Below are positions 29,347 through 46,808 of a stretch of 64,000 bases of DNA, in pieces. The position numbers and the translations under genes were made by a program. Numbering within the stretch: the stretch's first letter is position 1; every line of letters starts with the position of its first letter. Source of the DNA: Winogradskyella marina (GTDB lineage: Bacteria > Bacteroidota > Bacteroidia > Flavobacteriales > Flavobacteriaceae); assembly GCF_015645385.1 (NCBI RefSeq), contig NZ_JADOET010000001.1, positions 434,001 to 498,000 on the forward strand, in the 5' to 3' direction. The notes under the pieces were generated by a model. It searched no databases. It was not told where the DNA came from and saw nothing but the letters and a program-made list of their open reading frames with translations.

Positions 29347-29460
29347 CGTCAGTTCGAGTGATTTGAGGAACGAAAATTGTATCGAGAACCAATTGAACTA
29401 AATTCTTATTCTCGATACAAATTTCACTCATTTAAATCGTAAAATCCACTCGAATTGACG
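29347..29460. repeat. Nested palindromic repeat (family B)
   Basis: Outer arms CGTCAGTTCGAGTG (29347-29360) and CACTCGAATTGACG (29447-29460) pair with one mismatch. Inner arms TTGTATCGAGAA (29377-29388) and TTCTCGATACAA (29409-29420) pair perfectly. The whole unit is 114 bases, directly behind xdhB. A right-half copy lies inside the glycosyltransferase gene at 46177-46221, which shows that it is a dispersed family. Confidence 0.85.
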
Positions 29461-41288: not shown

Positions 41289-42116
41289 ATGAATAAAAAC
41301 ATCGTTGACATAGGAAAACTTACAGGTAAAGTACTACTCTTTGGTGGTGTTTACAGCAACCTTCAAGCCCTTGAAGCACTAATTGCCGTGGCAGAATCTG
41401 AAGGTGTTCCGCCTGAAAATTGTATTTGCACTGGCGATATTATTGGCTATTGCGCCCAACCCGAAGAAACCATGCAAACCTTTAAAAATTGGAATGCCCG
41501 AAGCATTGTTGGGAATGTAGAAATTCAACTTCGTGATGATGAAGACGATTGTGGTTGCGATTTTAGAGAAGGGTCGCGATGCGATGGGTTTTCGCAACAA
41601 TGGTATCCGTATGCTAAAAGCAAATTGTCTAAAGATTCTCTTGACTATCTTGAAACGCTTCCAGACCATATACAATTCACATTGGGAAATCAAAAGGTGA
41701 CTGTTGTACATGGTTCCTATGGTAATGTTTCAGAATTTATTTTCAAATCGACACCTTGGACTACTAAGCACTCTAATTTTGAAGCTACCGAAAGTGATAT
41801 CATTATTGCTGGCCATTGTGGTTTACCTTTTGAACACAACAACAGCGATAAACTTTGGATAAATCCTGGTGTGATTGGTATGCCTGCTAATGACGGAAAA
41901 CCGAATGTTTGGTTTGCTGTTTTAGATGATTCAACAAAACCATTACAGGTGAATTTTCGTAAGTTAGAATACAACTATACGCTAACTAATAAACTAATGC
42001 TAAATGGCTTGCTTCCAGAATCTTATGCGAAAACGATCGTTTCAGGAATTTGGGACAACATGGAAATACTACCTGAAGCCGAAAAACAGCAACAAGGAAA
42101 AGCACTAGAGTTGTAA
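41289..42116 (+). CDS. Metallophosphoesterase-like protein with altered metal-site residues
   Basis: The 275-residue protein has the calcineurin-like fold layout: GDIIGYC, VVHGSYGN and an AGHC segment appear in order, with YSNLQAL at the start. Key ligand motifs deviate. The first motif (usual D-x-H) reads GGVYSN, the third (usual GNH) reads VGNVE, and GHTH reads GHCG. A Cys-rich insert (CGCDFREGSRC) lies near residue 87. It is a metallophosphoesterase relative whose ordinary two-metal site is probably changed. It sits between the symporter and the rhodanese, and no function is proven. Confidence 0.75.
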   Translation: MNKNIVDIGKLTGKVLLFGGVYSNLQALEALIAVAESEGVPPENCICTGDIIGYCAQPEETMQTFKNWNARSIVGNVEIQLRDDEDDCGCDFREGSRCDGFSQQWYPYAKSKLSKDSLDYLETLPDHIQFTLGNQKVTVVHGSYGNVSEFIFKSTPWTTKHSNFEATESDIIIAGHCGLPFEHNNSDKLWINPGVIGMPANDGKPNVWFAVLDDSTKPLQVNFRKLEYNYTLTNKLMLNGLLPESYAKTIVSGIWDNMEILPEAEKQQQGKALEL

Positions 42117-45971: not shown

Positions 45972-46808
45972 ATGATTAGTATAATTATTCCGGTTTTAAA
46001 TGAGGCTGATACTATAAGTCGTTTGTTAACACATTTAATTGATAATTCGTCGCCTAAGAATATTTCTGAAATTATAGTGGTTGATGGAGGTAGTACAGAT
46101 GGCACTTTGGACATTCTTAAACCTGACAGGTTTTTAAAACCTGATAGGTCTGTTATAGAAAGCATGACACCCAATGTTCTCGATACAAAATTCCAAAAAC
46201 AGAATTTTACTCGAACTGACGTACAACTAGGTAGCGAAATAGGAGATCCTGAATCAAGTTCAGGATGGCATATTCAATCAAAAATACTTTTGCTTGAATC
46301 TTCCAAAGGCAGGGCAAAGCAAATGAACTTAGGTGCAAAACATGCCAAAGGAGAGGTTCTCTATTTTCTTCATGCCGATTCTTTTCCACCTATAGATTTT
46401 GATCAACTTATTATAAATGAAATTCAAAAAGGTAACCAAGCAGGCTGTTTTAGAATGCAGTTTGACAGCAAGCATTGGTGGTTACGTTTAGCCAGTTGGC
46501 TTACCCAATTTTCTTGGCGTGCTAGTAGAGGCGGCGACCAGAGTCAGTTTATTACAAAAACACTGTTTAACGATATTGGTGGTTATAATGAGAACTATAT
46601 TATCTACGAAGACAATATTCTGATTAATGAATTGTATGCTCGGAATGAATTTACCGTCATCAATAAAAAACTAACAACCTCTGCACGACTTTATCGTAAA
46701 CATGGTGTTTGGAAATTACAATACCACTTCTGGACAATTTATGTAAAGAAATGGTTTGGTGCTTCGGCAGATGAGTTATTGGCTTATTATAAGAAGCATG
46801 TTTGTTAA
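45972..46808 (+). CDS. TIGR04283-like arsenosugar glycosyltransferase with in-frame repeat insertion
   Basis: The 278-residue GT-A protein has IPVLNEADTI, VVDGGSTDGT and HADSFPP, and SSKGRAKQMNLGAKHAKGE, the TIGR04283 signature. In relatives only about ten residues separate the SSTDGT and KGRAKQMN segments; here residues roughly 50-105 lie between. The DNA for this piece (46119-46266) is made of a family A palindrome, the right half of family B, and a perfect ATCCTGAA-TCAAG-TTCAGGAT hairpin, all read without a stop. The conserved parts before and after keep one frame, so the gene is probably still expressed, but the loop is foreign to the fold. Confidence 0.88.
   Translation: MISIIIPVLNEADTISRLLTHLIDNSSPKNISEIIVVDGGSTDGTLDILKPDRFLKPDRSVIESMTPNVLDTKFQKQNFTRTDVQLGSEIGDPESSSGWHIQSKILLLESSKGRAKQMNLGAKHAKGEVLYFLHADSFPPIDFDQLIINEIQKGNQAGCFRMQFDSKHWWLRLASWLTQFSWRASRGGDQSQFITKTLFNDIGGYNENYIIYEDNILINELYARNEFTVINKKLTTSARLYRKHGVWKLQYHFWTIYVKKWFGASADELLAYYKKHVC
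46119..46150. repeat. Family A palindrome inside the glycosyltransferase gene
   Basis: AAACCTG-A-CAGGTTT at 46119-46133 is a perfect dyad, followed by a second AAACCTGATAGG at 46138-46149. The same motif is intergenic at 30025-30298. Confidence 0.85.
46177..46221. repeat. Family B right half inside the glycosyltransferase gene
   Basis: TTCTCGATACAA and the end ACTCGAACTGACG match the right half of the nested palindrome at 29347-29460 (29409-29420 and 29448-29460, one base different). Spacing between the two blocks is shorter here. Confidence 0.85.
46246..46266. repeat. Family C palindrome inside the glycosyltransferase gene
   Basis: ATCCTGAA, loop TCAAG, TTCAGGAT, a perfect hairpin of a type that is common between genes of Flavobacteriaceae, from general knowledge. 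Confidence 0.75.

Follow-up and report, generated by a model that had tools for sequence, protein, structure and literature searches.

A loop of a flavobacterial glycosyltransferase as a probable landing site for palindromic repeats read in frame

A glycosyltransferase (GT) gene in the window, the whole stretch of 64,000 nucleotides analysed here, carries pieces of three palindromic repeat families (A, B and C) between its two conserved halves, and the question raised is how such elements came to be translated at this position and whether the position is peculiar to one genome. The host genome comprises 3,983,694 bases in 78 contigs and its nearest named relatives are Winogradskyella species. 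The gene (Table 1) scores 225.4 bits against NCBIfam TIGR04283, above the curated cut-off of 182, and is a member of that family; a match to Pfam PF00535 was also identified by profile search. The frame is open throughout across A, the B arm and C, and the stop-free, in-frame reading advanced in the original prediction is thereby borne out. The loop between the conserved halves has 66 residues in the window and 17-19 in many relatives free of inserts, which gives an added length of about 47-49 residues, within the 45-50 estimated beforehand.

Table 1. Coordinates of the glycosyltransferase gene, its loop and the palindromic elements in the window
Feature	Position	Strand	Remarks
TIGR04283-family glycosyltransferase (GT) ORF, 278 aa	45972..46808	+	NCBIfam, Pfam PF00535, orthologues
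Expanded loop, 66 codons, about 17-19 of them native	46107..46304	+	Between DGGSTDGT and KGRAKQMN; AlphaFold2
Family A palindrome, read KPDRFLKPDR	46119..46149	+	Same family flanks RAYT-like gene
Family B palindrome, right arm, read VLDTKFQKQNFTRTD	46177..46221	+	Whole B at same place in L039-L041
Family C hairpin, read DPESSSG	46246..46266	+	Perfect 8-bp stem, 5-nt loop
Whole family B palindrome outside genes, 114 bp (L121)	29347..29460	.	Comparison copy

The family A dyad AAACCTGACAGGTTT, predicted at 46119-46133, was identified at that place as the first half of a longer A unit. No chance match to the 27-nt A unit was obtained in 100 shuffles of the window, and the A core AACCTGNCAGGTT is present at 5 places in the own genome (reversed-pattern control, 0). 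The second family is represented by the 114-bp palindrome of Table 1, spanned by no open frame of at least 80 aa, and has 26 blastn matches in the own genome, itself included. Divergence keeps the GT copy out of this set, but the B peptide detects it; it is also matched by the loop DNA of a relative (88% over 50 nt), and it corresponds to the right half of the palindrome, as had been claimed. Eight of the 26 matches are spanned by an open frame of at least 80 residues: three of these frames are long and overlap B only near their start (L124, L138, L142), and the others comprise 80-106 residues. B-like elements at regular spacing were also observed in tandem arrays, at G021:C1:413731-414816 and G000:C17:1285-1639. 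The C hairpin of the GT, ATCCTGAATCAAGTTCAGGAT, is as perfect as predicted, and its core TCCTGAANNNNNTTCAGGA was identified at 6 places in the own genome (reversed control, 0), with one match inside a 128-aa frame (L157) that looks like a chance match. The genome search proposed with the original prediction thus identified A, B and C alike as repeats of the own genome.

Orthologues of the GT were identified in all 37 genus genomes (own included), in 42 of 60 genomes searched when matches to other glycosyltransferases in the remoter genomes are counted, and in 173 of 249 family genomes at E 1e-20; a further sample comprised 80 named loci. With duplicates discarded, the comparison covered 157 distinct proteins, with loops of 16-77 residues. 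Short loops (16-24 residues) were found in 72, one of them with B motifs, and long loops (25-77 residues) in 85; these shares are not estimates, because 40 family loci were chosen where frames or alignments hinted at long loops. The insert block is absent from many orthologues, including those of Winogradskyella with 17-residue loops, which answers the comparison with relatives proposed in the original prediction. A loop native to the family was considered and rejected, given the 72 short loops and the extension of TIGR04283 over both halves.

The motif rules divide the 85 long loops into B (23), B with C (4), C (4), A with B and C (2), A with B (2) and unrecognised (50). Some elements are missed by these rules, since three of the short loops retained in the tree, those of L105, L113 and L225, read KPHRFQKPVRF or KPNRFLKPVRF, and those of L105 and L113 contain a perfect A-type palindrome, AAACCTCACAGGTTTCAAAAACCTGTGAGGTTT. 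Within the genus, whole B together with C was identified in the loops of W. psychrotolerans RS-3 (L039) and W. undariae (L040), whole B lacking C in W. thalassocola (L041), and A with a short B variant in W. eximia (L042). Single elements are also present, A in L105 and L113 and C in L061 and L069, and other orthologues have hairpins of none of the three families at the same loop position. No internal stop was identified among the GT-locus matches listed in the genus and family genome searches. Outside the loop, protein length is nearly constant: the motif-to-loop distance is 39-41 residues in 138 of 138 proteins with both motifs found, and the distance from loop to C-terminal motif is 160 residues in 130 of the 138. 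This near-constancy, along with the occurrence of further families at this position in other genera, supports the reading of the loop as a place where insertions are tolerated and where palindromes read in frame have landed on more than one occasion within the Flavobacteriaceae, to which we give a probability of roughly 0.7. The idea of a landing place had been put forward in the original prediction and gains support from the same two observations.

It had also been held that close relatives bearing the same loop with none of the repeats would speak against insertion. In a weak form this was observed, as the 50 unrecognised long loops contain no recognised element; most of the 50 we infer to be decayed inserts. 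A hairpin with z below -2 against its own shuffles was identified in 33 of the 85 long-loop DNAs and in 10 of 166 equally long core segments. Many loops of 47 residues have no hairpin and are taken for decayed or unrelated inserts. Loops of 47-48 residues with no clear palindrome were observed in L085, L094, L103, L108, L109, L248, L254, L257 and L260. They have a KEAYHYI-like motif at one position in common, perhaps an old insert that has become conserved.

The condition of the gene was addressed through selection. The core is under strong purifying selection (dN/dS 0.05-0.22, 23 pairs) and the loop under weak selection (0.23-1.18, 22 pairs where defined), some of the loop values being affected by small numbers of codons, by saturation or by a lack of homology between the inserts. 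In 21 of the 22 defined pairs the loop value exceeds the core value several-fold, the exception being L042-L043, where the two are close. A disrupted, unexpressed pseudogene is for this reason barely credible: no point in its favour was found, the core values argue against it together with the stop-free GT matches among those listed, and the catalytic motifs are invariant in 42 aligned sequences. The pseudogene reading was accordingly rejected.

In the AlphaFold2 model of the window protein the core is modelled well, with pLDDT below 50 at residues 56-99, between a helix (51-54) and a strand (105-109), and a second weak stretch at 182-188. The very low confidence of the insert in this model is consistent with disorder. 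Foldseek identified GT-A-type glycosyltransferases, the best being WrtF (TMq 0.54), and a sequence search of the PDB matched only the first 45-50 residues. A homologue search with the insert region of L039 scored 10 candidates and yielded 6 proteins, all with GT Pfam domains; this search had too few exact words to reach other protein families. In L105 the palindrome encodes residues 53-63, and AlphaFold2 places a strand at 62-65 (block pLDDT 90), so that a core strand would take its first two residues from the palindrome. These two predicted residues would fit inserts kept for a function, such as binding or a flexible segment of the enzyme, as would an Algibacter-like group whose 47-residue loops have residues such as KEAYHYI in common and dN/dS of 0.28-0.79. 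Such a function is very doubtful, however, given a loop dN/dS far above that of the core in 21 of 22 pairs, the low pLDDT of the window insert and close relatives that live with loops of 17-21 residues.

The distribution of the inserts among genes was followed with the B peptide of L041. Each of the three frames that stay open through the element was used against 60 genus genomes, and the frame read in the GT also against 249 family genomes. For the genus, the GT frame returned 68 matches, 11 of them in uninterrupted frames of at least 200 aa, and all 11 are at the GT locus. Two further matches fall within frames 295 and 304 residues long, each interrupted by a stop. The former is L170, where B overlaps the 3' end of an ORF (L170:808-1518 in G000:C11, B at 41468-41569) and encodes the residues with which the ORF ends, VTSSDF, together with its stop codon; this ORF looks like trpF. 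In the same 60 genomes no match of the second frame (0 of 64, longest 150 aa) or of the third (0 of 61, longest 137 aa) lies in a frame of at least 200 aa. The 249 family genomes gave 18 matches, 5 of them in frames of at least 200 aa and all 5 in the GT; since this one-variant query missed the B-labelled GT loops of G281, G307, G288, G212, G167 and G311, B inserts in other genes could be missed as well. The check on repeat copies in coding sequence identified the B peptide uninterrupted, in frames of at least 200 aa, only in the GT. Of the matches to strict A, B and C patterns over 747,448 bases in 81 stretches around the gene, 27 lie inside the GT and 4 are intergenic, and the remaining one is in a 92-aa frame of doubtful status; the reversed control gave 0. 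For A and C the search of coding sequence covered the own genome, where a second in-frame case was identified, an A repeat between the reading frames of a RAYT-like gene and hemF.

Whether the loop elements come from each cell's own pool or by descent was approached through copy numbers and phylogeny. The B core GTCASTTCGAGYG was identified in 135 of 249 family genomes (the control pattern gave 9 matches over the 249). Among 72 genomes with both a loop read and a core count, 10 have a B loop and each of these has 12-47 B cores, to which the GT loop's own copy may add one or two, whereas 15 of the 62 genomes lacking a B loop have at least 10; these 15, rich in B yet with none in the loop, count against the landing-site reading. 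The association has a Fisher p of 6e-6 (the threshold having been set after the counts were seen; rank test with no threshold, p 9e-5), and recognisable B loops are confined to genomes with at least 10 B cores. A 29-nt copy identical to the A palindrome in the loop of L105 lies 4 kb from it. Descent is indicated by G230, whose loop B is closest to the GT-loop Bs of seven other genomes (79-85%), with 80-81% at best over full length to non-GT copies elsewhere and 71% over full length (83% in pieces) to copies of its own genome. These identities point to shared ancestry, and B in the loop is probably in part inherited and not all newly inserted.

The extreme form of descent is one old B insertion, inherited and modified by decay, loss and gene transfer, with few or no later entries. 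It would account for the slightly greater likeness of GT-loop Bs of several genera to each other than to non-GT copies, for their common reading frame and place, and for the many palindrome-free loops of 47-48 residues, which could be decayed B. We regard it as unlikely, given that recognisable B loops are restricted to B-rich genomes, that the A of L105 has its copy nearby and that A and C also occur in the loop. When 44 rows hand-picked after the tree was seen were compared by the AU test, C-bearing rows as one clade were rejected (p-AU 2e-6) and A-bearing rows less firmly (p-AU 0.023). Close sisters differ too: L044, L049 and L011/L064 form a starred group in the GT tree, with loops of 69, 54 (with another hairpin) and 21 residues and cores about 90% alike (measured for L044-L064), and L044 and L049 have a common C relic preceded by different elements. 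The loop-free GT tree requires at least 22 changes between long and short loops, 6 in the state of A, 20 in that of B and 12 in that of C, the A and C labels being partly by eye and including relics; the number of entries is unsure because the backbone is weak, with 20 of 154 inner branches starred. One pair, L090 and L099, has a loop pS of 0.05 and a core synonymous pS of 0.50, as if the loop had been recently exchanged or copied. The sliding identity of this pair (92-98% in the loop, 77-92% nearby) and the other pairs did not bear out loop conversion as a general process.

In the window, A next to half a B gives the impression that A took the place of the left arm in a formerly complete B, with C following; the loop of W. 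psychrotolerans RS-3 still has such a whole B. The nesting and adjacency of the elements might reflect a target at the DNA level, the elements preferring each other or the local sequence, with tolerance of the protein secondary. Intergenic B arrays (the one in G021:C1; also L139, L140 and L143) would agree with this, but some loops have A (L105, L113) or C (L061, L069) as their single element and no B, and a DNA-level target is judged unlikely.

Three PF01797 matches were identified in the own genome by profile search. Around one of them (L120; 26.1 bits in one search and 21.8 in another, cut-off 23) A repeats are present in inverted orientation at 1402-1431 and 2003-2029, the right-hand one, ACCTGTCAGGTTTTGGAAACCTTACAG, recurring exactly at L151. 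A is presumed from this flanking to be moved by a RAYT-type protein. No GTAG tag was identified next to A at the five copies inspected. In L120:1480-2940 (G000:C22) the RAYT-like frame runs stop-free through the right-hand A repeat into hemF. The hemF part matches PF01218 from profile position 3 (446.7 bits) with no ATG, GTG or TTG seen as its start, and the frame is, judged by its reading, a possible in-frame transposase-HemF fusion. The other two PF01797 genes, L118 (G000:C4) and L119 (G000:C3), have short palindromes of their own around them, GTCGCTCCTCTGGAGC-like and GTCCCTAACGGGACA-like.

The inserts were compared with three known systems. CGTC-tagged REPs are described as having a CGTC, TGTC or CCTC tag, an 8-9-bp stem beginning AT, a 4-5-nt loop and a CCA-like tail, and the available text of Di Nocera et al. 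2013 (PMC3733652) reports no dedicated transposase for them. The intergenic C copy L155 agrees with that definition (TGTC, stem ATCCTGAA/TTCAGGAT, loop CTTGA, tail CCA). The GT copy keeps stem and loop but has TGCC and CTC at tag and tail, and the other listed C copies vary. REPs within ORFs are reported from several species, with clusters coding for 43-82 residues, and recB of two Xanthomonas has REPs at about the same site (PMC3733652, available text). The GT inserts resemble these, with the differences that B, which starts with CGTC, is a palindrome of 114 bp and too large for a REP of 20-40 bp, that A has no GTAG tag, and that one site with unrelated families across a bacterial family is undescribed in the same text (PMC3733652). 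In RAYT, REPtron and TIRtron systems the likeness is the inverted A repeats around a PF01797 gene, a link found here for A alone among the three families; the missing tag and the frame running through A into hemF set A apart.

Rickettsia palindromic elements (RPEs) are found in frame in protein genes, where they add tens of residues with the protein apparently kept, according to the available text of PMC10969869 and PMC3733652. The GT inserts likewise are palindromic repeats in frame in a protein gene, and the comparison made in the original prediction holds for this behaviour. It does not extend to membership: RPEs occupy many unrelated genes, whereas three unrelated families occupy one loop of one gene here, across genera of another phylum. 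Many unrelated genes per genome were not found for B in uninterrupted frames of at least 200 aa, with A and C checked in the own genome. Searches of the openly licensed literature for in-frame palindrome inserts in Flavobacteriia and for B core strings found no description, and a single site common to unrelated palindrome families across a bacterial family appears to be undescribed.

In the proposed course of events the elements would come from the cell's own pool, A being probably moved by a RAYT-type transposase, and insertions elsewhere in genes would mostly be removed by selection. In-frame insertions would survive in the GT because the loop, between the second helix and the third strand of the glycosyltransferase, presumably leaves the core as a flexible stretch at the surface, at a distance from the catalytic motifs. 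Inserts may later lose their palindrome, be replaced or split by another element, or disappear, and the inserted residues would usually have no function of their own. A bolder reading, held tentatively and with the odds somewhat against it, joins two claims: that the loop is a family-wide landing pad for selfish DNA, swapped in frame so that nearly every species has its own insert, and that the palindrome of Thermobacterium/Luteirhabdus encodes the start of a core beta-strand, new protein sequence having arisen from mobile palindromes.

In-frame palindromes have so far been isolated curiosities. The GT loop offers one small site that can be followed across dozens of related species in states filled by different elements, empty, decaying or refilled, with the conserved enzyme core beside the loop serving as a clock. 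This makes it possible to test whether the spread of such elements reflects targeting or chance combined with selection, and whether junk peptides that originate in mobile DNA turn into functional parts of proteins.
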